From: a virus
Virus record (IMG/VR): IMGVR_UViG_3300050821_009576
Location: 1 to 46,051 of that record
Reading direction: 5' to 3' (one strand)
Length of the DNA stretch: 46,051 nucleotides
Part shown: piece by piece, positions 27,610 to 44,846 of the stretch
Layout of the letters: each line of letters opens with the position of its first letter
Position numbering within the stretch: the first letter of the stretch is position 1
The notes under the pieces: generated by a model
Seen by the model: only the letters and a program-made list of their open reading frames with translations
What the model was told of the DNA's origin: nothing
The model's database searches: none
Translations under genes and position numbers: made by a program

Positions 27610-28011
27610 TTATCTTGTCAGATCCCCATGGTGAACTTCAAAATCTTGTGGTGTATCTCCACGTTTAATGTGCATTGCATAATGAAGACTCTGCCATCTT
27701 CTACGCAAGTCTGTACGCTTCATATCTTTTGGAGGACGAGCCTCACAAAACAAACACCATGTTGGAACACCGAACCCTCTTCCACTACGACGAATAACGT
27801 TGGCCAAGAGCGAGAACGACCCTGGTGGCAAATTCGCGTGAAGAGAGCTCAGAGCGACTCGCAGTTGTGAGGATGATGTTTTCGATGATTCCTGTGACAT
27901 GAGCAATTGCAAGTGCTTCGGCAACCTGGGAAGACTCGTGTTGATGTTTATGACTTCTGCTAATTTGGGTTTGGGGGCTTTCGTGTTGGTCTTTCGTGCG
28001 GCCATCGCCAT
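27610..28011 (-). CDS. Hypothetical protein overlapping zinc-finger gene
   Basis: 133 residues from ATG 28011 (an aggag SD, 8 nt before). It overlaps the end of the zinc-finger gene by 227 bp in the +1 frame, an unusually long same-strand overlap. The unique C-terminal part (WCLFCEARPPKDMKRTDL, then LHYAMHIKRGD) has a CxxC and two His that could form a further zinc site. Alternatively a frameshift joins the two frames. No known family. Confidence 0.45.
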   Translation of the reverse strand: MAMAARKTNTKAPKPKLAEVININTSLPRLPKHLQLLMSQESSKTSSSQLRVALSSLHANLPPGSFSLLANVIRRSGRGFGVPTWCLFCEARPPKDMKRTDLRRRWQSLHYAMHIKRGDTPQDFEVHHGDLTR

Positions 28012-28555
28012 TCATTAACTCCTGAGTACTTCGAGTTGTTAGAGCGTTTGGTTTATGAACTTGTGCGATATGGATGCTTAGTCCATGTTGTTTAGTAAAC
28101 GTCCTTTGACACTGTGGACACTGAAGTTGGCCTTCAGTAGTAACTTTGGAAGACAAGAGCTTCGCAGTTGTCATTTTCCTTAGTTTCATAGCAGTATATG
28201 AACGACCAAGAACGTTATGCTGGAAGCGTCTATGCTGTCCAAGTTCTGTTGGTGTTTTGAAATCAACAGCTCTGTGTTGAGTTTCCCAACATTCTGGACA
28301 GCGATGGATGCCTTGTTCCTTTAGTTTGTTGAGATGATTCTCCGTCCGAGTCTTTCCAGCTTTTGCTCTAGTTTCTGGAGAGTGACTATTGGAGATATGA
28401 GTGTGGATGGCCTTTTTAAGACCCTTCTCGCGCTTCTTGATGGCGTCTTCCGGTAGAAGCTCTCCAGTTCTAGTCATCTTATGGACCATCGCCATATGAG
28501 AAGATAGTCCAGCATTATTCTTGTATTCTTTTTCACACTGTGTACACTTTACCAC
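27785..28555 (-). CDS. C2H2 zinc-finger protein
   Basis: 256 residues if the GTG at 28555 is used (aaaggag, spacing 5 nt). Three finger-like motifs: CTQCEKEY-x8-HMAMVH (C-x2-C-x12-H-x4-H), CPECWETQ...HRRFQH (longer spacing) and CPQCQRTF-x8-HIAQVH. A basic middle region and a C-terminal helix (VAEALAIAHVTGIIENIIL, SSREFATRVVLALGQ) follow. Such fingers are rare in phages and suggest sequence-specific DNA or RNA binding. It starts near the end of a 52-residue basic ORF. The C-terminal frame overlaps a second gene. Confidence 0.7.
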   Translation of the reverse strand: MVKCTQCEKEYKNNAGLSSHMAMVHKMTRTGELLPEDAIKKREKGLKKAIHTHISNSHSPETRAKAGKTRTENHLNKLKEQGIHRCPECWETQHRAVDFKTPTELGQHRRFQHNVLGRSYTAMKLRKMTTAKLLSSKVTTEGQLQCPQCQRTFTKQHGLSIHIAQVHKPNALTTRSTQELMNGDGRTKDQHESPQTQISRSHKHQHESSQVAEALAIAHVTGIIENIILTTASRSELSSREFATRVVLALGQRYSS

Positions 28556-28566
28556 TATAACTCCTT

Positions 28567-28725
28567 TCACTTCTTGCGCTTTTTCTTTCGTTTTCCTGGC
28601 CCATGTGCCAATCCAACCGCCATGTATTTCAACTTTGGATCACGCATGTTAGCATAAGATCTTTCTGTATCACGTGACGATTGTTTTTCAAGTGGACCGG
28701 TTCCTGATTTCGGTGGTTTCATCAT
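28567..28725 (-). CDS. Small basic protein (52 aa)
   Basis: ATGATG at 28725, overlapping the stop of the SNF2 gene (ATGA), so translation is coupled to it. The product (KPPKSGTGPLEKQSSRDTER then MAVGLAHGPG) ends in GKRKKKRKK, so it is strongly positive at the C-terminus and may bind nucleic acid. It fills the gap between the helicase and the zinc-finger gene exactly. No homologue recognised. Confidence 0.55.
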   Translation of the reverse strand: MMKPPKSGTGPLEKQSSRDTERSYANMRDPKLKYMAVGLAHGPGKRKKKRKK

Positions 28726-30388: not shown

Positions 30389-31336
30389 CTACTCGTCTTC
30401 AAACGAGATAAGTCTTGGTGCATCAACTACAAGTTTGTCTAGCTCAACTTTGATTTCTTCAAAGCCTTGCTTAACAATGTCTCGAAGATTATCGTCACCG
30501 CGCAGAAGTTCAGGATCTAATCCTTTTGTCATTTGACTGATCTTATCGACCATGGCTTTCAACTCAACATCGGACGTCAGATTTCTAGCATCAAATACTG
30601 AAATGAAGTCATTGATATTGTCGATTGAAGGCCTCTTAAAGGCTTTTCTCTTACCGTCAGTTGTTGGAGATAAACGATCAATCAAGTGACTGACGAGATC
30701 ATTCATGTTTACACGAAGTAAAGTTCGGATATTGTTCGAAGCATCTACCCACTGAGCTCTCAACTTTGCTTCTTCTCGTTTAACAACCTCTGCTGACAAG
30801 GACCTTAGCGCATTTCCAACTCCAAGCTCAGCATACTGCCAACTAAACCTAAACTCTCTTTTGGCAAGTTCAAGTGGCATATAGTCGTCGGGATTAAAGA
30901 GTGGACCAAGTTTTAACTTAGCACGGTCAATTGCTGACTGATATTCATCAGGTGAGCAAAATTCATTGACCATTTCGATGCGGTTCTTTAAGTGGTTTTC
31001 TAACACCTCATCGACTTTGGGTACTAAGGAAACTGGAAGTAATTTTGCACTACGAAGGGGAGAAGGTAAGCAATAACGTTTTACTAAGTTGATTTCCATT
31101 AAGGAATCGGCATTGTAAATCGACCATAATTTCTTACTAGAAAAGATTGTTTTAGAAGTGCTCATCCAGGATTTGTCAGTCTCAGTCTGAGATTCATTCC
31201 ACTTAATAACTTGGATTTGTTCAGGTCGGACTGTTTTACTGACTCCAATGTAGGTTTTCTTAATGAGCAAGAGAACTGCTTTGTCCATTATGTTTGGGAC
31301 ATTACTAGTTTCAAGCTCTTCTAATGCTTCTGACAT
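30389..31336 (-). CDS. Hypothetical protein (possible AAA+ partner)
   Basis: 315 residues, helical, with YCLPSPLRSAKLLPVSLV, EFCSPDEYQSAIDRAK and FRFSWQYAELGVGNALRSL, and a long C-terminal helical region. In several phages proteins of this size that resemble the DUF3150 family occur near MoxR/AAA+ ATPases. An AAA+ gene lies 2.4 kb upstream in the minus-strand block, but pairing is speculative. Start ATG has aaggtgag. No domain is certain. Confidence 0.45.
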   Translation of the reverse strand: MSEALEELETSNVPNIMDKAVLLLIKKTYIGVSKTVRPEQIQVIKWNESQTETDKSWMSTSKTIFSSKKLWSIYNADSLMEINLVKRYCLPSPLRSAKLLPVSLVPKVDEVLENHLKNRIEMVNEFCSPDEYQSAIDRAKLKLGPLFNPDDYMPLELAKREFRFSWQYAELGVGNALRSLSAEVVKREEAKLRAQWVDASNNIRTLLRVNMNDLVSHLIDRLSPTTDGKRKAFKRPSIDNINDFISVFDARNLTSDVELKAMVDKISQMTKGLDPELLRGDDNLRDIVKQGFEEIKVELDKLVVDAPRLISFEDE

Positions 31337-32431: not shown

Positions 32432-32763
32432 CTGCGTCTACGTCTCCTTCTGAAATCAGGATTTGTTTCTAGTTTTTCTGGTCTAGGCTTTCTCATAGCT
32501 TCTTCGACAGGTACATCAACTTCTTCACCAGCTAGAATTTTCTCAATGGATTCATCGACAATCTCCATCTTCTTCTCTAAGTCAGGTAGTAATGCTGATA
32601 GAAGTGGAGAGTCTGCAAACTGTTGTCTAGCAACTTCTTTCTTAGCTTTCTGTTCTATCGCAGTAGCTAATTCTGGGTCCTCAGTTCCTGTTGACTCACG
32701 GTAACGGACCCCGGCGCATTTAAATTCATACCACCACAGGCGTCCGCGTAGGAAGATAGTCAT
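32428..32763 (-). CDS. Orphan integrase arm-type DNA-binding domain protein
   Basis: 111 residues from the ATG at 32763 (aaaggaggt, 8-nt spacing; an ATG at 32811 lies inside the HNH gene). It starts TIFLRGRLWWYEFKCAGVRY then RESTGTEDPELATAIEQKA, which is the N-terminal arm-binding domain of tyrosine recombinases (G.WY..f...G.R.reStgt.d...A). No catalytic domain follows; instead an acidic and then an Arg-run tail (FRRRRRRR). It may be a relic, or a small excisionase-like regulator. No full integrase is present in this window. Confidence 0.6.
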   Translation of the reverse strand: MTIFLRGRLWWYEFKCAGVRYRESTGTEDPELATAIEQKAKKEVARQQFADSPLLSALLPDLEKKMEIVDESIEKILAGEEVDVPVEEAMRKPRPEKLETNPDFRRRRRRR

Positions 32764-33257
32764 ATGGAATACCTCCTTTTGTTTTCTTCTTTCTGATGAC
32801 AAGAAGAACATAGAGATTGCCCGTTACTTACTTCATATCGTAGTTCTAGAAAATCTTCCCATGACTTAATATGGTGAGCGTGAATACAATACTTACTTGT
32901 GCGTCTTTTCTTACCTGATGCTAGGAACAACTTATAAAGTTCTTGGTCAGTTATACTACATTTCTGGCAGGTAAAGTTATCTCTTGTAAGAACATCTTTT
33001 CGCCATTTAAAGAATCTTGGGCATTGTCTAAGATCGGCATATTCTCCACCATTCTTTGCTAGTTTTCCTTCTAGCTGTTTTTGGTGAAATTCACGTGTTG
33101 AGTTTAGAATAGCAATATCAGGTCGTTTCTTTCCAGTTTTAGCTTCTGATATTTTACGAGCAATTTCTAGTTTTTCTTTTTCCGTCTTATTTTTCTTAAC
33201 CTCAGACATCAACTTTCTTGTTTCTTCTGATAGTTTGGATCCTTTTGGCCTACTCAT
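32760..33257 (-). CDS. HNH homing endonuclease with NUMOD3-like N-terminus
   Basis: 165 residues. N-terminal helical DNA-binding modules (KLSEETRKLMSEVKKNK, KISEAKTGKKRPD) precede an HNH core: RDNFTCQKC, then CIHAHHIKSWEDFLELRYE, and NGQSLCSSCHQKE. Two CxxC pairs, the HH and N-x-x-x-L-C-S-S-C-H pattern complete the HNH site. ATG overlaps the stop of the previous gene (ATGA), so it sits within the operon rather than interrupting a gene. Probably a mobile homing endonuclease. Confidence 0.85.
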   Translation of the reverse strand: MSRPKGSKLSEETRKLMSEVKKNKTEKEKLEIARKISEAKTGKKRPDIAILNSTREFHQKQLEGKLAKNGGEYADLRQCPRFFKWRKDVLTRDNFTCQKCSITDQELYKLFLASGKKRRTSKYCIHAHHIKSWEDFLELRYEVSNGQSLCSSCHQKEENKRRYSI

Positions 33258-33727: not shown

Positions 33728-35284
33728 CTAAGCCTGACCTATGTCAAATCTTCTAGTAATCGCTTGAGCAACTTGACCTTCAATCTTTTCAAGTTTCTCA
33801 TCTTTATAGATATACTTTCCTGGTGTGCTAGCCGAGATAAATCTCCCGCTTGCTTCTCGACGGAGTTTATCAATTGACTCCTTAGCGCTTTCACAAACTG
33901 GAACTATGTAACTTGCGGCCTCAACAAGTGAAATGTTCAACCTATAAGATAGATTACAACAATTTCTGATCTCCGCACCTGTCCAACCTTCATCGTTGGG
34001 AACATAAACGTCAATAGCATCGTGAGCTGTAAGATAAGCTCTGTCAAGTAATCCATACTTCTTCAAGTAAAGCGGCCAGATGCTAATTCGTTCTTCCTTA
34101 GAAGGGAGGTCAAAGAAGAATGTACCAAAGGAAAATCTACGTCGGAGTTCAGGTGGGAGTGAAGTAATTGAATTACAAGTCGCGATACATAGGACCTTTC
34201 CACCAGAGACTGCATCTACAACCTTCAACGCATTGCGGAGGTTTTTAGTAGAGTTACCTACAAGACTATCTTTCATCGCTGAGAAGTTAAACTGGATGCA
34301 CAAGATCCCACCTATTGTAGCAGCAACCTTAGCAATTAAGGATTTACCAGCTCCAGGTGGTCCAATTGCGATAACACCAGTAACCTCATTGTCTTCCATA
34401 TAGGAGAGTTGCTCTCCCATCATTTCCTGAGAAGTACCAGATGTATCTGTAGTACCACCTGAGGTACCCATAACTTTTTCAACTTCATCAATGAATAAGA
34501 TGACGTTTGGTGGTTCATTACCAGTCATCAACTTTGTTAAGAAGGATTTTATGTTTTCTAGACCACCAACATCAGCAAGTGTCTCTGACCCTTTCCAGAC
34601 ACTTAATCCAGGCTGCGCCTCAATTGTTTTCCGCTTTCGTTCCCACATGTTATCAAGGTCAATACCAGTCTTTGTTAAGGACATAGCTGTAACTTGTTCA
34701 GCTGAAAAAGCGGAGAGACCAACTAATGACTCAACTGCTTTATTGAATTTATCTGGTTCCTCATTAAGGCCAGCATCTTCATAAGTTTTCTGGATAAGTT
34801 TTCCTAACTCCTCACGAGTTGGTAAAGGTTCATCTAGAATCAAGATATCCTGAGTCAATTCAGTTGGTAGTTTGAGATTTGGAGTGAGCAGAATTAAGGT
34901 TCTTCCATCCTGCTTAAAAGTGTCTCGTAGATTCCAGATGGCCTGGATAACTGATTCGTTCTTCGTGGTTATGTACAACTGAGCATTGTGAAAGAATAAA
35001 ATCGACCTAGCTGGAAGTTTTTGTGCTTCTAGTAGGGCTTCAGTTGGATTAGTGATCATGGAGTAGTCAATATCTGAATTCTTCTTGATAGCAGCTACAC
35101 CTGCGTCATTTATTGGAAGAATCCCACGAACAATATCCCATGAAAGTAAGGGAGCACCATTTGTTATTGGTACTATGTTTTTGATTGTTGATGCTGGATC
35201 TGGGGTCTGAACGGCGATTATAGGCGTTGACACTCTTCGTGCTGCCTTTATGCTTTTGATGAATGTAGATTCTACCTTCTCCAT
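33728..35284 (-). CDS. Ycf46-like AAA+ ATPase with Walker B segment placed before Walker A
   Basis: 518 residues from ATG 35284 (an in-frame TTG at 35293 is an alternative). The N-terminal half follows Ycf46-type proteins: a RecA-like part with LLSWDIVRGI, SILFFHNAQLY, then RTLILLTPNLKLPTELT and DVGGLENIKSFL. The order of the ATPase motifs is unusual: a Walker B-like VILFIDEVEKVMG with GTSQEMMGEQLSYM comes first (about 261-290), then Walker A GPPGAGKS (about 308-315), then a sensor-1/arginine-finger section CIATCNS and LPPELRRRF, FFFDLPS. In standard AAA+ proteins Walker A precedes Walker B. Substrate and role are unknown. Confidence 0.75.
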   Translation of the reverse strand: MEKVESTFIKSIKAARRVSTPIIAVQTPDPASTIKNIVPITNGAPLLSWDIVRGILPINDAGVAAIKKNSDIDYSMITNPTEALLEAQKLPARSILFFHNAQLYITTKNESVIQAIWNLRDTFKQDGRTLILLTPNLKLPTELTQDILILDEPLPTREELGKLIQKTYEDAGLNEEPDKFNKAVESLVGLSAFSAEQVTAMSLTKTGIDLDNMWERKRKTIEAQPGLSVWKGSETLADVGGLENIKSFLTKLMTGNEPPNVILFIDEVEKVMGTSGGTTDTSGTSQEMMGEQLSYMEDNEVTGVIAIGPPGAGKSLIAKVAATIGGILCIQFNFSAMKDSLVGNSTKNLRNALKVVDAVSGGKVLCIATCNSITSLPPELRRRFSFGTFFFDLPSKEERISIWPLYLKKYGLLDRAYLTAHDAIDVYVPNDEGWTGAEIRNCCNLSYRLNISLVEAASYIVPVCESAKESIDKLRREASGRFISASTPGKYIYKDEKLEKIEGQVAQAITRRFDIGQA

Positions 35285-35306
35285 TTGGTTCAACTTTCTT
35301 TCTAGT

Positions 35307-35726
35307 CTATTTATATTTACATGCCCAAGCCGCTAACTCTCTCCTTAGGCGTTCATCTTCTTTGCTGTGGTGTTTAGCGCAATAGAGAGTGGCTAATGTT
35401 GGATCATACAGGATGTTTATATCCTGCTCATACATCTTCTTAAAGAATTGTCCAGGTAGTAGGTGGTGAACATCTAAGTTTGTTGTGATTAAACATCCAA
35501 GTTCTTGACATTTGTTCTTTTTTCTGACAATAGCTTGAAACTTATAGTAAGGAGCACACTGTCTAGGATGCTTATACGATATGCCATTTCTAGGTCCTTT
35601 AGGTCCTAGCCTTTGTGCAATTTCTTTTTCTTGTTCCTCAGATCTATTTTGATGTACTTCCTTCATTCTTTTTGAATGCTGTTGTTTAAATTCTTCTGGT
35701 CTCTTCTTACCTTTGGGCCAAGGCAT
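35307..35726 (-). CDS. HNH endonuclease-like protein
   Basis: 139 residues. Basic N-terminus (KGKKRPEEFKQQHSKRMKEV) like NUMOD3 modules, then a ROK-like linker and an HNH-type core: NKCQELGC, LDVHHLLPGQFF, then LATLYCAKHHSKED. The HH, N/D and H residues fit HNH enzymes, with an odd Cys spacing. It begins near promoter C and precedes the AAA+ gene. Likely a second free-standing homing endonuclease in this operon; activity not certain. Confidence 0.7.
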   Translation of the reverse strand: MPWPKGKKRPEEFKQQHSKRMKEVHQNRSEEQEKEIAQRLGPKGPRNGISYKHPRQCAPYYKFQAIVRKKNKCQELGCLITTNLDVHHLLPGQFFKKMYEQDINILYDPTLATLYCAKHHSKEDERLRRELAAWACKYK

Positions 35727-35837: not shown

Positions 35838-37178
35838 TTAGTCTTCTGTTCTAAGATTTTTGACTAAGACGCTATCTAGTGAGAACTGACCAATAGCATA
35901 AGATTGAGAATTCAAGATAATGACTTTATCAGCTTCATCTCTGTATTTAGCAACTAAAAGTCTACACAAACCAACTTCCTTTTCTTGTGTTGTTTGGTTG
36001 TGAGTATAGAGTGCATCTACAGTTCCAGCTATACTCCAATCCTCAGAAATATCGCCTTCATCAATCAACTTTGAATCCTTAGCTGGTCTATTCGACTGAG
36101 CGGAGCAAATTAAAGCTGTATTTCTTTCAACTGCTAATCCTCGAAGGCCAATCCATAATCGTCCAAGTGAGATGCGTAAGTTATTAGCATCAACGGCCAT
36201 ATTATGAGGAGCATCAAGAATAATCTGATCTGGTATGAAACTATAATCTTTGTCAAGTCTATCTAGAAGAAGTTGAAGATCAGTAAGTGAGAACATCCCT
36301 GTTGGATATTCTTTGATGAGGACTCGTGGCCAAGATAAAGCTGATCCTAGACGTCTTAATATTTCTTCACGTCTTTCAACAACAGAGCTTCTAACAATTG
36401 TTCTGTAGTCGATGACACCATTTGAAAAGAAAGCTACACGGACTTCTTTTGCTTCATATTTACTCAGTGAGAACAATGCCTGAACAAGTCTTCCAGCAAA
36501 TTTTTCTTGACTTAATTCTAGTGTAATTACAAGTGTGGTCTTTCCATATTGAATCCCAGCCTTTGTTTCATTGACCATTGCCCAGGTCTTCCCTCTTCCT
36601 GTTGAAGCCATCCAGCAGGCAATAGTCTTTCTTTGTGGGATTAAGTTCAACTTATCAATAGCTTCAACACCAGAAGAAAAGAATTCTTCAATAGTGTTGT
36701 CACTATTACGAAGCATAGCAATTGGATCACTTAGCCAAATGCCTGGGTCTTCTATCTTAGTTAGTTTACGTTGTCTAGTTAGTTCTTTCTTAGCAAACTC
36801 AACATCACCACGAGCAACTGCTTCCATAGCTGATGTTGCTGCTTGGTTTATTTGCTCAGCTTCTTCCCATGTGTTTAACTCAGATAGGACGAATTCAGGT
36901 TGTAGAGTAGCGTATTGTTCAGGAAGACTATCTAGAATCTTACCTAAGAGTATACCTTCATCACCCCTGCGTAAATCATTTTCTAGAAGAAGTTCTAACT
37001 GATCACCAGGTGGGAGACGATATTCTTCTATGTAAGCAATTGCCGCTTTTGCAATCTTTTGATTAACTCGTCCTTGGAACAAGTTTGGGTCAACACGTGA
37101 AGCTAAGAACAAACAATTCTTTTCATCATAACATAGAAGTGCAAGGATTGCTTGGCCAAGAGCACTAGCAGATATCAC
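35838..37178 (-). CDS. DnaB-like replicative helicase
   Basis: 446 residues, GTG start overlapping the QueE stop (GTGA). N-terminal DnaB-like helical domain (QAILALLCYDEKNCLF, VDPNLFQGRVNQKIAKAAI). The RecA-type domain has Walker A ASTGRGKT (191-198), LVITLELSQEKFAGRLVQAL, which is the DnaB 'SlEms...l..R' motif, Walker B IILDAPHNM, and a SAQSNRPAKD sensor. The Walker B Asp followed by Ala-Pro-His is diverged from the usual D-x-x-Q. It unwinds DNA at the phage fork. Confidence 0.8.
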   Translation of the reverse strand: MISASALGQAILALLCYDEKNCLFLASRVDPNLFQGRVNQKIAKAAIAYIEEYRLPPGDQLELLLENDLRRGDEGILLGKILDSLPEQYATLQPEFVLSELNTWEEAEQINQAATSAMEAVARGDVEFAKKELTRQRKLTKIEDPGIWLSDPIAMLRNSDNTIEEFFSSGVEAIDKLNLIPQRKTIACWMASTGRGKTWAMVNETKAGIQYGKTTLVITLELSQEKFAGRLVQALFSLSKYEAKEVRVAFFSNGVIDYRTIVRSSVVERREEILRRLGSALSWPRVLIKEYPTGMFSLTDLQLLLDRLDKDYSFIPDQIILDAPHNMAVDANNLRISLGRLWIGLRGLAVERNTALICSAQSNRPAKDSKLIDEGDISEDWSIAGTVDALYTHNQTTQEKEVGLCRLLVAKYRDEADKVIILNSQSYAIGQFSLDSVLVKNLRTED

Positions 37179-37897
37179 CGAACCCCCAGGATTTTGTGGA
37201 TTTGTAGAGAAATCCTAATTTCGGGATGCTCCTTGGCGATTTCTGAACATATACCAGCATTTACTGGGTTGATTGAATCAACATCGTTGATTGGTGAAAT
37301 CCAAACTTTATGTGAGTTTTTGCGGACACTCTCGGGAAGTTTACTCCACGAAAATTCATTATCAACAAGGATCCGAATTTCATCTCCTAATTGAGCAAAC
37401 ATATCGTTGAAAGGAAACTTGGGACTAACGACTACCCAATCTATGTATGAAACTGAGTCGTAGTATAATGTTGTTCCTGAAGTCTCAAGATGAGTTAGAA
37501 AACCCTCTTCTTTCAAAAACTTGAGCAAGGGAGTGAGATTGTGCATCATTGGCTCGCCACCCGTAATACAAATCCACTTACAGTCTGTAGTCAATTTCCT
37601 AATTTCTTCTACAATTTTAATTGTAGTCATACTCATCTTCTTGCGATAGTCTGTATCACAAGGAAATTTACGACCATCCCAAGTTGTACATTCTGTCTGA
37701 AAGACTTTCAAATCATTCTCAGACTTGTATGTAGTAGTGTAAGGCTTACCAACTGTACAACCTGCAAGCCGTACAAATACCATTGGCATACCAGACTGAG
37801 CACCTTCACCCTGGATGCTGTAGAAAATCTCTGAGACAGGATAGAAAAGTCCAACCTCAATAGGTTTTGTTATTTCTACTTCCATTGTTTCAGTCAT
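37175..37897 (-). CDS. queE: 7-carboxy-7-deazaguanine synthase-like radical SAM enzyme
   Basis: 240 residues. Start SEIFYSIQGEGAQSG, then FVRLAGC and the GGEPMM motif (SAM binding), are clear QueE features. The three Cys for the 4Fe-4S cluster look spread apart: Cys47 in LAGCTVGK, Cys70 in TECTTWDGR, Cys80 in FPCDTDY, giving C-x22-C-x9-C instead of a compact C-x3-C-x2-C. Similar spreads occur in some phage QueE proteins. Acts in 7-deazaguanine synthesis, after QueD. It precedes DnaB with overlapping stop/start. Confidence 0.85.
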   Translation of the reverse strand: MTETMEVEITKPIEVGLFYPVSEIFYSIQGEGAQSGMPMVFVRLAGCTVGKPYTTTYKSENDLKVFQTECTTWDGRKFPCDTDYRKKMSMTTIKIVEEIRKLTTDCKWICITGGEPMMHNLTPLLKFLKEEGFLTHLETSGTTLYYDSVSYIDWVVVSPKFPFNDMFAQLGDEIRILVDNEFSWSKLPESVRKNSHKVWISPINDVDSINPVNAGICSEIAKEHPEIRISLQIHKILGVR

Positions 37898-38221: not shown

Positions 38222-38803
38222 TCAATCTCCTACTTGGTTATGGTCGTAGATAGCTTGCTTCTCAGCATTACATTCTTCAATAGGCTTACCACAACATTCA
38301 CATAGAACTGGTTTGTAAGCAAGTGGTGGATTCTCCCAAGCAACCATAACTGACTTTAAAGTTGCTGAGGCAGAACATTTTCTAGTCTCCTCTACTTTTA
38401 CAGAGACTAATTGGGCTCCAGTTCCTTTGAGTTGTTGCGGACCAATTACTTCAAGTAAGTATGATGCCATGTTTTCTGCTGTTGGATTAAAAGGAACAAA
38501 GACGATGCCTAAGTCCTCATCATTGATTGTTGGGGCAGTAGCTAGTAAACGAACAAACGGACTATTATCTTTGTTCCACAACAAAAACTTGTGGTCCCAG
38601 TTTTCTTCTAACCACTGGCAGAGTAGTTTATTAATTGTACCAAAATCAAGAACACGACCAACCAAATCTAAGTCACCGGCGATAATGAAGGTTACACGAT
38701 AATTATGCCCATGTAGATAAGCACACTTGTTTTCATGACCATGTACTCGATGGCCTGCGGAGAAATCATGATAGCGAGTTGCGTTTCTAATTGTTTTTTC
38801 CAC
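38222..38803 (-). CDS. queD: 6-carboxytetrahydropterin synthase homologue
   Basis: 193 residues from the GTG at 38803 (ggagg 6 nt upstream; an in-frame TTG at 38809 abuts the SD). Zinc ligands His18 (SAGHRV), His31 and His33 (HGHNY), and the catalytic Cys27 in NKCAYLHGH, are in the QueD arrangement. The mid part has RVLDFGTINKLL and later SVKVEETRKCSA. An extra C-terminal segment with CECCGKPIEEC may bind zinc. Makes the QueE substrate. It overlaps the 38787 gene by 17 bp. Confidence 0.85.
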   Translation of the reverse strand: MEKTIRNATRYHDFSAGHRVHGHENKCAYLHGHNYRVTFIIAGDLDLVGRVLDFGTINKLLCQWLEENWDHKFLLWNKDNSPFVRLLATAPTINDEDLGIVFVPFNPTAENMASYLLEVIGPQQLKGTGAQLVSVKVEETRKCSASATLKSVMVAWENPPLAYKPVLCECCGKPIEECNAEKQAIYDHNQVGD

Positions 38804-39047
38804 CCTCAACCTCCAACTTAGTTACTCTGTCATGTACACCGTGGATGGTATTCAATAGTGTAGTTATCTGATTCTCTGTTCTTTCACTCAGATGATCTAT
38901 TTTGTCACTTAAACGATCACCTAAGTTATTCGTACGACTACCCAAACCATCTATACGACTTATAAGAAACAAGATGATAGTCAAAGCTCCAGCAAAAACT
39001 GAACCAAAGATCGAAGCTAAAATTGTTGCGAATTGCCACGGTTGCAT
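38787..39047 (-). CDS. Small membrane-anchored coiled-coil protein
   Basis: 86 residues. One hydrophobic segment (ATILASIFGSVFAGALTIIL) near the N-terminus and a helical, charged tail (SDKIDHLSERTENQITTLL, THGVHDRVTKLEV-like). Resembles small phage XhlA/holin-accessory type proteins in layout but reversed in order. Overlaps QueD by 17 bp. Function unknown. Confidence 0.5.
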   Translation of the reverse strand: MQPWQFATILASIFGSVFAGALTIILFLISRIDGLGSRTNNLGDRLSDKIDHLSERTENQITTLLNTIHGVHDRVTKLEVEGGKNN

Positions 39048-39065: not shown

Positions 39066-39383
39066 TTATACTTTACTAGAATACTTTTCCACCACCCTAG
39101 TTAGAGCCTTGTCAATTTTCTGCTTATCAAGTTCAGTATACTTCTCCAAGTTTTCAATAATTACAATCTCATCTACAAGTTTTGTAAGAGCAGCCGAGAC
39201 TAGAGTTATTGAAGTTGTTAAGACAATCATAGGTTTATCTAGTAGGATAGCGGCGCCAACCTCCAAACAGATTTTTGAATCTAACGGTTTGTCAGGAAGT
39301 AGAATCATCATAACTCTACTTTTTACCATTGTAGGAATTACTACCTTTTGGAAGTGTTCTAGATAAGGATTCAACCTATTCAC
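39066..39383 (-). CDS. Small Rossmann-like protein (possible nucleoside deoxyribosyltransferase-like)
   Basis: 105 residues; GTG start at 39383 overlaps the SbcC-like stop. The fold pattern is alternating: SRVMMILLPDKPLDSKICLE, VGAAILLDKPMIVLT, then LVDEIVIIENL. 'LEvG.A.lldKP.ivl' is seen in short nucleoside 2-deoxyribosyltransferase/SLOG-like proteins. Catalytic residues are not certain. Its neighbours are nucleotide-modification and recombination genes. Confidence 0.45.
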   Translation of the reverse strand: MNRLNPYLEHFQKVVIPTMVKSRVMMILLPDKPLDSKICLEVGAAILLDKPMIVLTTSITLVSAALTKLVDEIVIIENLEKYTELDKQKIDKALTRVVEKYSSKV

Positions 39384-41386
39384 ATGGCGCCTATTTGCTC
39401 AATCTTTGTTCCAAGTTGTGGGTCTTTCTTCGCCATCCAGATTTCTTTAAAGTTGCTGTATGTCAAAGCTGTATGATCACAGATGAAAATAGTTTTGTTA
39501 AGAGCTGCCGCTCTGTAATCTAGTGTCTCCAGCATATCCTCAATACCTTCTTCACTTAAATAGGTGGATGCTTCATCCCAGACTTCCAAGGGCCACCAAC
39601 TACCTGAAGCCCTCTGAATAAGCGATGCCAAACCCTGAGCCATAGCTAGACGTAAACGTTGGCTTTCGCCACCTGACCATGATTCCCATGTAGCATCTTG
39701 CTTTGGTGAATGAACTTGAATCTGAATCCCGAGCTTTACAGTCCCAGATTTTGTTTCAGTCTCAGTCGATAAGTCGACTGACCAACCCTTCATACCTAGA
39801 GTTGAGATGGCAGAATTTATTTCAATTGCCAAAGCTGCTAAGACTTTGTTTGTTAAGTAGAGCCTAATCCTTTTGAAGCCTTGCTTCCAAAACTCGACTA
39901 ATGCAAGGTTATTATTTAAGTTCTTAATCTCATTAGAGACATGCGTTTCTTCGCTTAGCAATGCGTTTCTTCGCATTTGTACCTCATCCTTAGCCTTTAT
40001 ATAGGGGTTCTTCTGCTCTTCTTCAGTCAGAAGGAATTGCTTATACGGATTGGCTTCTTTTCTGGCCTCTTCTATCCTAACTACGTAGGGATTATTGCCA
40101 TTTGGATTTTCTGATTTCTTTACAACTTCTCGACATTCGTCTTCTAGTCTATGAAAACTCTTCTTAGCTAGGTCGAGTAATTTCTTAACACCTTGAACTC
40201 GCTCTTTTTCAACAGCTACTTCAGTGACAATCTGATTTGTAATTTTTCTAGATTCAGTAACCTCAATTTGTAGCTTTTTAGCGCTCTCTTTCTCAGCCCA
40301 AACTTGGACTTCTAGATTACTAAGAGCATCACGTTGTTCTTGTAGGTGCTTCTCAATTTCTTCTAGATTAGCATTTGTTAATACTTGACCACAAGTAGGA
40401 CAATAACCACTACCCTGCATTGAGGAGATTCCTCGCTCTATAGATTGGTGTCTAGATTCTTTTACGGCAATGGCACTCTGTATAGCTCGAAGCCTGCCTT
40501 CTAGAACGGAATCATTATTCTGAGCGTTTAGCAACTTAACAGTTTGGTCAGTTGTTACTAACTGATTTTGGAATTCTTCAATTTTGGTTGTAACTTCATC
40601 TAGTTCATCACCTAGTCTTTCTAGCTCAGCATTAGATTTTTCTTCCCATTCTTTTAACCATCTAGTAGAAGAGGTTTCTAGATTAGTAATCTTAGCTGCT
40701 TGTTGCTCATCCCAATTTAGAAGTTGGAGTTGTAGTGTCTTAAGCTTTTGTTGGTGATTAACTTCCCATTCATCAATTTCCATCTGCAAAGATTCTTCAG
40801 ATGGTAGACCCTTAAGTTCACCTTGAACCCCAGCTAGGGTGATCTTCTTCTTTTGGACTTGTTTTTCTAATTCTGAATACTTGTTAGTTGTAGTCCATGC
40901 ACACCGCATCCAGAATTCAAGACCTAGGACATCCTCCAGTAGGTCTCCTCTTTCAGGTACAGTTAAATCTGGGAATAAGCGGTATCCTTGATTAAAGATT
41001 ATAGAGTGTTGGAATGGTAGTCTTTTTAAGCCAAGAAGAGCATCTATTACACCTTGCTCTGTACGCTGACCATCAAGGTATAGGTAAGCTGGTGGGCCCC
41101 ATCTTTTGATTGTATGTACCTTGTCAGACACTTTTACATCTACTTCGACCCAGGTGTCTTTTTCTCCCCATGTAGTTAGCATGGAGAGTTTTCCATCTCC
41201 ATAGAAACACCAGCGCATTGCCCACCAGATAGTAGTCTTACCTGCTCCGTTAGCCCCTAAGTCTGGTTCTTCATCATTCTGACCACCTAAAAATCGAAGA
41301 CCTGGTTCTGTTGGAAATATAATCTTTTCATCTCTAATAGAGCGAAAATTGTGGATTCGGATTTCAAGGACTTCAACAGTTCTCAC
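39380..41386 (-). CDS. SbcC/Rad50-like ATPase (gp46 type)
   Basis: 668 residues, GTG start with ggag upstream. N-terminal FRSIRDEKIIF and Walker A GANGAGKTT (44-52), a long coiled coil, zinc-hook CPTC near residue 330 (YCPTCGQVL), second coiled arm, then a signature WSGGESQRLRLAMAQG and Walker B LEVWDEAS. This is the Rad50/SbcC plan and is shorter than the bacterial SbcC. It forms a complex with the Mre11/SbcD-like protein encoded 0.8 kb upstream. A repeat copy lies within its coding sequence. Confidence 0.85.
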   Translation of the reverse strand: MRTVEVLEIRIHNFRSIRDEKIIFPTEPGLRFLGGQNDEEPDLGANGAGKTTIWWAMRWCFYGDGKLSMLTTWGEKDTWVEVDVKVSDKVHTIKRWGPPAYLYLDGQRTEQGVIDALLGLKRLPFQHSIIFNQGYRLFPDLTVPERGDLLEDVLGLEFWMRCAWTTTNKYSELEKQVQKKKITLAGVQGELKGLPSEESLQMEIDEWEVNHQQKLKTLQLQLLNWDEQQAAKITNLETSSTRWLKEWEEKSNAELERLGDELDEVTTKIEEFQNQLVTTDQTVKLLNAQNNDSVLEGRLRAIQSAIAVKESRHQSIERGISSMQGSGYCPTCGQVLTNANLEEIEKHLQEQRDALSNLEVQVWAEKESAKKLQIEVTESRKITNQIVTEVAVEKERVQGVKKLLDLAKKSFHRLEDECREVVKKSENPNGNNPYVVRIEEARKEANPYKQFLLTEEEQKNPYIKAKDEVQMRRNALLSEETHVSNEIKNLNNNLALVEFWKQGFKRIRLYLTNKVLAALAIEINSAISTLGMKGWSVDLSTETETKSGTVKLGIQIQVHSPKQDATWESWSGGESQRLRLAMAQGLASLIQRASGSWWPLEVWDEASTYLSEEGIEDMLETLDYRAAALNKTIFICDHTALTYSNFKEIWMAKKDPQLGTKIEQIGAM
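39935..39975 (+). repeat. Dispersed repeat, copy 3 (inside the SbcC-like gene)
   Basis: A 20-bp block at 39935-39954, written on the plus strand, is identical to 4191-4210, and its core ATGCGTTTCTTCGC recurs at 39961-39974 with a 20-bp period. It encodes an in-frame part of the coiled coil (MRRNALLSEETHVS). The second block of the other copies is missing. Its presence inside coding sequence makes chance or an independent cause possible, but the 20-base identity is hard to ignore. Confidence 0.55.
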
Positions 41387-42187: not shown

Positions 42188-43201
42188 TTATAATGTTTCT
42201 TTTATAATCTCAAGTCCCATTGCTTTAAGCTCAGGAATTAGTTTTTCTTCATCTGCAAACAACGTTACAACCTGCTCAGGGCTAATCTGTTCAATACCAG
42301 CTTGAGCTATGGCTGTTTCAGATCCACGCTCGAAGGTTTGTTGAAAGATAGCCTCCAGTGACAATAACTGAACCTCCTTAACTTTAACTAAATCTCGTAT
42401 GTCTTTCTCAATTTCCGCCCACCTAGGAAATGTTTCCTGCGTGATATAGAAACGGATACGAAGTTGGTCACCAATCCTTGTTCCTTGGAGGAGTTGAAAT
42501 ACTTCATCAACTGACATTACGTTCATAGTCAAACGACGAATGTTCTCCAAAGGAATCTCTTTTGCCTTCCAATTCTCAGTATCTGTAACTAATACATGAC
42601 ATTCCCAATCTTCACCGAATCGAGTTGGGTAGGGAGCTCCAATATATGTGATGTTTCCTAAGGTCTGAGGTCTGTGAACGTCACCAGAGTAGATTGGAAT
42701 GTTAGGCAAAGTAGGCAGTTTGTCACCCTTCTCTAGTTTATAATCTCTTTCAACTAAAGCTCCAGCAACTGTTTGGTGCATAAGTAATGCTTTACCAAGC
42801 TCAAGTTTGAGATCTTTCCAATCCTCAGCAGGATTACTACTAAATGGGAGTAGCCAAACTTCTATGTTTTCGAGGAATTCAGGTTTAGTTATGTAGTGAA
42901 CACCATCAAGTTCATTAAGAAATTCCCAATAATGAACTCCACCATAAATAGGTGAGTCATGATTTCCCGCTAAGACGTAAGTTTCAAGCCCTTGTTCAGA
43001 TAGCCATTGCAGTGCACCAATACTTTGATTAACAAGTTTGGCGCTATGTCTGTCTTTACGATCCCAACCATCTCCCAAAATGAATACGTACGTGATTTTA
43101 TCAATTTTACAAATGTCAGCAATTTGTTTAAACAAATCCCATCTGTAAGCGTCTAAAGGGTTGTCTGTTAAATGAGGATCCCCGACAAGTAGGATGTTCA
43201 T
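42188..43201 (-). CDS. SbcD/Mre11-like nuclease (gp47 type)
   Basis: 337 residues. Metallophosphoesterase motifs: ILLVGDPHLTDN, FILGDGWDRKD, LAGNHDSP, then LLMHQTVAG and IPIYSGDVHRPQTLG. These are the D-x-H, G-D-x-x-D, G-N-H-D and H-x-H-like sites of Mre11-family nucleases. Partner of the SbcC-like ATPase. ATG overlaps the stop of the upstream gene (ATGA). Acts in end-processing during recombination-dependent replication. Confidence 0.9.
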   Translation of the reverse strand: MNILLVGDPHLTDNPLDAYRWDLFKQIADICKIDKITYVFILGDGWDRKDRHSAKLVNQSIGALQWLSEQGLETYVLAGNHDSPIYGGVHYWEFLNELDGVHYITKPEFLENIEVWLLPFSSNPAEDWKDLKLELGKALLMHQTVAGALVERDYKLEKGDKLPTLPNIPIYSGDVHRPQTLGNITYIGAPYPTRFGEDWECHVLVTDTENWKAKEIPLENIRRLTMNVMSVDEVFQLLQGTRIGDQLRIRFYITQETFPRWAEIEKDIRDLVKVKEVQLLSLEAIFQQTFERGSETAIAQAGIEQISPEQVVTLFADEEKLIPELKAMGLEIIKETL

Positions 43202-43799: not shown

Positions 43800-44846
43800 C
43801 TATGTTGTTGTCCTTGAAGGAATTGCAGGACGTGGAGCTACCTGTGTACTACTATTGCTATTGTTATTTGCTGGCGGGTCGTAGTATTTCTTTGTTTTAG
43901 GCCGTAGTGCTTCTTCAATCGCTGCCCACTCGATTTTAGTTCTAGTTTCAAGTTGAGTATGAACTTCTTTAAGAAGAGCACTGTTAGTGCCATCCTTTCG
44001 TCCTCTCTTCAATTGTTCTGTGAAGGCGTCTCCTTCTTCCTTATTGAACGCTTTGATACCTGTAAGCCAGTCGTTCATTGACGTTTCATCATCAATTCCG
44101 TAGCCAAATAAAATTGGGAATTCTGCTGTTCGATAGGGTAGGGCTACTTTGTTTTTCTTGACATTTGACTTGATACCGACACCCACTGGGCGGGAGATAC
44201 CATGGAATGTCTTTTCAATCTTTCCACTTTGTGCCAGCCATACAACCTGACTAGCATAAAAATCTAACGCCTTTCCACCAGATCTAGAGTAGTGTTCACC
44301 AAAGGTAACTCCAATATTATCACGTACCTGGGAGATGACTTGAAGGTGACAATGGTGCTCTTCCATATCCTGCACAATACGCCGGAAGAGTTCTGACATC
44401 GCCTTTGCCTTTTCAGCGCCGTAAGTAGCATCTCCAAGCTCACGCTTCATTTCAGCATCTGATGAAAGAGCATCAAGGGAATCTAGAACGTACAACATCT
44501 TCTTCCCTTTGTTGTCCTTGATGAACTTTGACAGGTCCTTATAGAAGTCTTCAACTGTTCTGATTCGTTCGAGTGGTTTCTGAACCGACCCAGGAAAGCC
44601 AAGTAAGGCAGCATAGCTATCGTCAAAAGCAGCTTCAGCTTCACCATATCTTGTAGCAGTGTTTGCTTCGCCATATTGACGAATAAAATTGATAATGTGT
44701 TCGATGGCAACTAGAGTCTTTCCTGTTGATCGATCTCCAACAAGATTGGAAACTCTATCATTTGCCCATCCTCCCCCTAGGGCCAGATCTAAAAGAACTG
44801 ACCCAGAAGGGGTAAACGTTACGGTCTTTTGTGTTGGAGGAGACAT
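43800..44846 (-). CDS. RecA/UvsX-like recombinase
   Basis: 348 residues. Starts GSVLLDLALGGG; Walker A GDRSTGKT (37-44); Walker B KMLYVLDSLDAL near 118-128; the region SELFRRIVQDMEEHHCHLQV and ISQVRDNIG fits the L2/motif-4 part of RecA. The Q-rich/S-rich end is flexible. Its start overlaps the end of the SSB gene (TAATG), as in phage recombination operons. It catalyses strand pairing. Confidence 0.9.
   Translation of the reverse strand: MSPPTQKTVTFTPSGSVLLDLALGGGWANDRVSNLVGDRSTGKTLVAIEHIINFIRQYGEANTATRYGEAEAAFDDSYAALLGFPGSVQKPLERIRTVEDFYKDLSKFIKDNKGKKMLYVLDSLDALSSDAEMKRELGDATYGAEKAKAMSELFRRIVQDMEEHHCHLQVISQVRDNIGVTFGEHYSRSGGKALDFYASQVVWLAQSGKIEKTFHGISRPVGVGIKSNVKKNKVALPYRTAEFPILFGYGIDDETSMNDWLTGIKAFNKEEGDAFTEQLKRGRKDGTNSALLKEVHTQLETRTKIEWAAIEEALRPKTKKYYDPPANNNSNSSTQVAPRPAIPSRTTT

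Follow-up and report, generated by a model that had tools for sequence, protein, structure and literature searches.

AAA+ ATPases are among the commonest motors in biology, and a fixed succession of Walker A, Walker B, sensor 1 and arginine finger serves both to define and to detect them. The circularly permuted GTPases of the YjeQ/RsgA type are P-loop NTPases in which the motif order is altered and the fold is kept. The family with which the protein analyzed here was compared comprises the Ycf46-type AAA ATPases of phages, bacteria and plastids, e.g., gp050 of Rhizobium phage L338C or ycf46 of Pseudomonas phage SM1 in BFVD. Shared with this family are an apparently degenerate N-terminal domain, the GGLE helix, the P-loop, IDE(I/V)EK, the ATCN sensor-1, LPPEL-R-RF, a C-terminal lid and, in relatives, DUF2997/DUF1257 neighbors. 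In Ycf46-type proteins the Walker B block lies C-terminal of the P-loop block, whereas in the clade described here it lies N-terminal of it. We are highly confident that our protein belongs to a phage-borne Ycf46-type AAA+ clade whose catalytic core was block-exchanged once.

Searches of the open-access literature for permuted AAA+ proteins, for Ycf46/DUF1257/DUF2997 and for DUF3150 (subscription papers being outside their scope) returned no description of such a protein, and the two closest papers apply the term "permuted" to DNA methylases. The publication on the Tunturi viruses, one of which encodes a relative, does not mention the ATPase (PMC11924767). Thus, a natural block-swapped AAA+ core is apparently undescribed, which the lack of a report in the open literature does not prove. 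A large natural clade that breaks the AAA+ order while its residues and neighbors are kept offers a natural experiment on the extent to which topology constrains a molecular motor, and also on folding order and the fixation of internal permutations. If fold and catalysis were indeed kept, the order of the core strands along the chain, treated as a defining property of AAA+ proteins, would be evolvable.

Motif order of the ATPase gene

The analyzed DNA (hereafter the window) comes from a virus record and represents a phage contig of 46 kb (46,051 nucleotides). Its ATPase gene had been annotated as one uninterrupted frame at 33728-35284; the frame is indeed uninterrupted, 35284 corresponds to an in-frame ATG at residue 4, and the frame runs to 35293 (Table 1). 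Read from the translation, the motifs follow each other as VGGLENIK (residues 242-249), VILFIDEVEK (264-273), TDTSGTSQEMMGEQLSYMED (282-301), GVIAIGPPGAGKS (306-318), SLVGNSTKNLRNALK (343-357), KVLCIATCN (366-374) and LPPELRRRF (379-387). VILFIDEVEK continues into a Thr/Ser/Gly-rich loop and a helix, upstream of GVIAIGPPGAGKS, which is in turn followed by the pore-loop region SLVGNS, helix α2 and the sensor-1 strand. Neither motif reading nor the AlphaFold secondary structure revealed a second Walker B C-terminal of the P-loop; helix α2 passes directly into the sensor-1 strand. The region ahead of the core (residues 1-231) resembles the N-terminal part of Ycf46-type proteins in looking like an AAA-like domain that has degenerated.

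Table 1. Position of the ATPase gene, its motifs and blocks, and the conserved partner gene in the window.
Feature	Position	Strand	Remarks
Conserved partner gene	30389..31336	-	315 aa; distant DUF3150 family; near ATPase
Block-swapped AAA+ ATPase gene	33728..35293	-	one open frame, 521 aa, TTG start
N-terminal region, residues 1-231	34601..35293	-	five-stranded α/β domain plus helices, without P-loop (AlphaFold secondary structure); collinear with canonical relatives
GGLENIK motif, residues 243-249	34547..34567	-	pre-core helix α0 in canonical position; G244 invariant in family alignment
Block B, residues 262-303	34385..34510	-	Walker B strand β3 and helix α3, ahead of P-loop; family profile positions 261-299
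Walker B ILFIDE, residues 265-270	34484..34501	-	D269 98%, E270 invariant
Block A, residues 304-364	34202..34384	-	β1, P-loop, α1, β2, pore-loop region (SLVG), α2; family profile positions 300-358
Walker A GPPGAGKS, residues 311-318	34340..34363	-	K317 invariant
Sensor-1 strand β4, residues 366-374	34172..34198	-	N374 invariant; immediately C-terminal of α2
Arginine-finger pair R385-R386	34136..34141	-	R386 invariant; role from AAA family knowledge

Exchange of two adjacent core blocks

The linear order of AAA proteins, β1-P-loop, β2, β3-Walker B and β4-sensor 1, is violated in that the β3 block stands ahead of the β1 block. Pfam PF00004 matched the window protein as three separate stretches and its canonical relatives as a single stretch (1-130/131), with AAA scores of 32-65 bits for four swapped proteins versus 99-111 bits for three canonical relatives. 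Swapped AAA+ proteins score poorly in profile searches, and similar rearrangements may escape annotation. A PDB search with the window sequence alone matched a VCP-like ATPase in out-of-order pieces, residues 306-359 aligning with 503-556 of that chain, 264-312 with 562-610 and 367-448 with 605-681. In about 70 canonical relatives, hmmsearch with a family profile (A2) built from 64 members matched profile segments 1-255, 300-358, 261-299 and 360-480, always in that order. Both AAA domains of Cdc48 show the identical block exchange against the core profile A3; in Cdc48/p97 and other classic AAA proteins all core blocks align significantly and the fold probability is 1.00, but the block order differs.

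By profile matches, canonical relatives and Cdc48/p97 are arranged as N, A, B, C and the swapped proteins as N, B, A, C; in the latter, the N- and C-terminal parts are collinear with the Ycf46-type family, whereas the core is not. Judged by these matches, block A (β1-P-loop-α1-β2-α2, ∼60 aa) and block B (β3-Walker B-α3, ∼40 aa) have traded places and the flanks are untouched. The comparison set consisted of natural sequences only.

A circular permutation like that of the cpGTPases was rejected, because both termini stay in place and are collinear with those of canonical relatives. In YjeQ/RsgA-type GTPases the termini are relocated, whereas the swapped AAA+ proteins keep theirs and have two neighboring internal blocks interchanged. 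The first-pass annotation had proposed a permuted core, with the Walker B segment before the P-loop in one continuous gene whose remainder is of Ycf46 type. Motif order and profile matches bear out this placement, and the parts on either side of the swapped blocks are indeed collinear with Ycf46-type AAA ATPases. The rearrangement itself also holds, its type being refined to an exchange of adjacent blocks, unlike in the permuted GTPases with which it had been compared. A normal Walker B after the GKS motif, which would have refuted the proposal, was looked for by motif reading and alignment and is absent.

Conservation of catalytic residues

The AAA hallmarks are present, i.e., Walker A GxxxxGK[ST], Walker B hhhhDE, the sensor-1 Asn and the arginine finger(s). 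In addition to the residues marked in Table 1 (E270, K317, N374 and R386), K273, G311 and G314 are invariant in the family alignment, and within the swapped clade D269 is conserved at 98% and R385 at 92%. The residue before the P-loop Lys (316) is Gly in 100% of 122 canonical sequences; in the swapped ones it is Gly in 53%, Ala in 36% and Ser in 9%, and about 46% of the swapped clade carry Ala, Ser or Cys. With residue 316 relaxed, the active site may therefore not be quite standard. The swapped enzyme probably retains activity, its P-loop chemistry being somewhat relaxed, an inference made without biochemistry.

Predicted fold and coevolution

With the A2 alignment, AlphaFold modeled the full-length protein at a mean pLDDT of 93.0 (pTM 0.87) and the core alone at 91.2 (pTM 0.88), predicting strands at 264-268 (the IDE segment), 305-310, 331-335, 367-373 and 391-393. 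We rely on the model for confidence and secondary structure; strand order was not read from its coordinates. Foldseek searches of the PDB, run both with the complete model and with the isolated core, retrieved classic AAA domains with probability 1.00 and did not reveal strand order. Sequential superposition of the core was poor in the best 50 (TMq 0.34-0.54, rmsd 7.7-17.9 Å), as expected of a block swap, which is indirect evidence only.

Coevolution in 107 swapped sequences, a shallow set (Meff 97), served as a test separate from the model. The top four of the ten strand pairs (β3-β4, β1-β5, β1-β4 and β3-β2) are the neighbors of the canonical 5-1-4-3-2 sheet (chance 1/210). They lead whichever of the nine parameter settings is used. 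Among 12 runs on 80% subsamples, 10 placed three of these pairs in the top four, and 2 placed all four there. Moreover, positions 263/264 and 363/364 at the former α2-β3 junction, which are chain neighbors in the canonical protein, are strongly coupled at a distance of 100 residues, with a score matched by only 0.09% of comparable blocks. No coevolution signal was found at the former α0-β1 and α3-β4 junctions. A rewired chain with the usual fold fits these data, with the coevolution being shallow and the strand order inferred. The ordinary five-stranded sheet 5-1-4-3-2 is predicted still to be built, because all connections would be parallel β-α-β crossovers with short linkers, so that D269/E270 would remain beside K317. 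In line with this, a position of the IDE strand between the sensor-1 strand and β2 is compatible with both model and coevolution, and the other refutation that had been envisaged, a structure in which the IDE segment is not the Walker B strand, finds no support in these predictions.

A rearrangement of sequence only would make the IDE segment convergent or duplicated rather than the Walker B of this P-loop, with the true acidic residue elsewhere and the motor unusual or dead. The P-loop glycine relaxed in nearly half of the clade would suit such a protein, and strand order is inferred rather than seen. However, homology to canonical β3-α3 extends beyond the IDE over the entire block, D269 is conserved at 98% and E270 at 100%, no strand-borne acidic pair follows the P-loop, and coevolution sets the IDE strand beside β4 and β2, which leaves this explanation very unlikely.

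Intra- and inter-chain contacts are indistinguishable by coevolution, and ring ATPases have neighbors available, so that β3-α3 might instead complete the core of the adjacent subunit, with two chains per active site. Such a domain-swapped assembly appears very improbable, since AlphaFold confidently folds a single chain with the strand paired, and a linker of only three residues joins helix 287-301 to strand 305-310; linkers this short make a reach to the neighboring subunit less likely. It is very likely that an AAA+ ring lineage exchanged two adjacent β-α blocks once, kept fold and catalysis, and then drifted in its P-loop chemistry.

Extent of the swapped lineage

The swapped order was present in all 174 ORFs of the lineage and absent from all 155 canonical ORFs, and no mixed, duplicated-block or intermediate forms occurred among these 329. 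Some contigs were fetched twice; the set non-redundant at 90% identity comprises 107 swapped and 122 canonical sequences. The motif order that the first-pass annotation suggested searching for in environmental phage proteins is therefore shared by a whole lineage and is not a one-off.

A scan of viral contigs with the window protein alone found no relatives, and a query made by aligning the most divergent members proved too loose. A two-sequence alignment run against IMG/VR retrieved 219 relatives; the 80 that were retained all have the swap, and a scan with canonical planctomycete proteins yielded 80 canonical phage proteins. Twelve swapped and 68 canonical loci were found in genomes, the former in assemblies labeled Acidobacteria, Armatimonadetes, Nitrospirales and Myxococcales and in the complete chromosome of Nitrospira moscoviensis. 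Among named phages, tblastn returned eleven records, the closest being gp103 of Tunturi_3 (39% identity over 95%), an isolate that infects Tunturiibacter; gp103 has the swapped order. The proteins of Rhizobium, Agrobacterium and Rhodobacter phages and of a Streptococcus satellite that were read have the canonical order. An assembly, frameshift or recombination artefact, conceivable for a single metagenome contig from a public virus collection, can practically be ruled out, because isolate phage Tunturi_3, the complete N. moscoviensis chromosome, more than 100 non-redundant sequences and all 174 family ORFs share the order.

Origin of the swapped clade

In a tree on registered profile columns, the 107 swapped sequences group into a single clan (support 1.0) with canonical phage ATPases as sister (support 1.0), and in a smaller tree planctomycete proteins are the nearest canonical ones. 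Separate trees of the N-domain, C-part, block A and block B each recovered the swapped clan without a canonical intruder (support 0.83-0.97), and since the four agree, the gene was not stitched together from distant sources. As far as descent can be read from sequences, these trees show that the swapped clade arose once, from canonical phage ATPases, and the inferred tree supports descent from the Ycf46-type family despite the exchanged core. The canonical phage and planctomycete sister clade (L099, L101-L103 and L249-L289) has the DUF3150-type partner, DUF2997 and DUF1257 in common with the swapped clade (L008-L087 and relatives), but it has the canonical block order and an invariant Gly before the P-loop Lys, neither of which holds for the swapped clade.

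An ancestral N-[β1 P-loop α1 β2 α2]-[β3 Walker B α3]-[β4 sensor-1, β5, arginine finger, lid] would have become N-[β3 α3]-[β1 α1 β2 α2]-[β4 ...]. The simplest route would be that the A-B segment was duplicated in tandem and that the first A and the last B were then lost, which is inferred without an intermediate in support. Most likely, the protein is a working AAA+ ring ATPase that was rearranged once in phage evolution, its activity, ring and substrate being inferred.

Gene neighborhood and proposed function

A partner gene of ∼315 aa accompanies 75 of the 80 swapped viral loci, usually downstream, and a DUF3150-type partner is found at 61 of 80 canonical viral loci. The window partner protein alone has no Pfam match and no PDB relative. 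Ten of 34 members of its family match DUF3150 (PF11348, best E 2.7e-9), and on these matches the partner is a divergent DUF3150 protein. DUF2997 and DUF1257 (Ycf35-like) proteins are encoded near about half of the swapped relatives, also in Tunturi_3, and beside 67/80 and 69/80 canonical phage ATPases, respectively; neither is recognizable in the window. With neighbors common to both forms, the swapped enzyme and its canonical sister belong to one kind of gene set, for which the simplest reading is a remodeling ATPase plus partner proteins.

Ring formation and the roles of pore loop and arginine finger are presumed here from knowledge of classic AAA proteins. Subunits would form a ring and bind ATP between them (K317, D269/E270 and N374, with R385/R386 from the neighbor), and hydrolysis would drive the remodeling of a protein or complex, in concert with the DUF3150-type partner and, in relatives, the DUF2997/DUF1257 proteins. 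This functional step, inferred without biochemistry, has in our estimate an even chance of being right.

ORF96 of Tunturi_3 (PP885686; L002:7702-8661), annotated as HNH endonuclease, belongs to the DUF3150-like partner family, and the annotation looks wrong. At the N. moscoviensis locus (L095:7989-11022), the swapped ATPase and a DUF3150-like neighbor lie, by eye, near primase-like, SNF2-like and mercury-resistance-like genes; this looks like a mobile island more than a plain prophage.

The ATPase gene of the window is flanked by a small HNH gene (32760-33257, minus strand; PF01844, E 2.6e-8) and by an ORF that is HNH-like but has no Pfam match (35307-35726, minus strand), possibly homing endonucleases. 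A C2H2 zinc-finger protein with two finger-like motifs is encoded at 27785-28570 (minus strand; PF00096, E 2.1e-8). QueE/QueD-like genes, a radical SAM protein (37175-37897, minus strand) and a 6-pyruvoyl tetrahydropterin synthase (38222-38809, minus strand; PTPS, E 3.3e-25), may point to a deazaguanine DNA-modification pathway. SbcC-like (39380-41386; AAA_23), SbcD-like (42188-43201; Metallophos) and RecA-like (43800-44846) genes are clustered, all on the minus strand.
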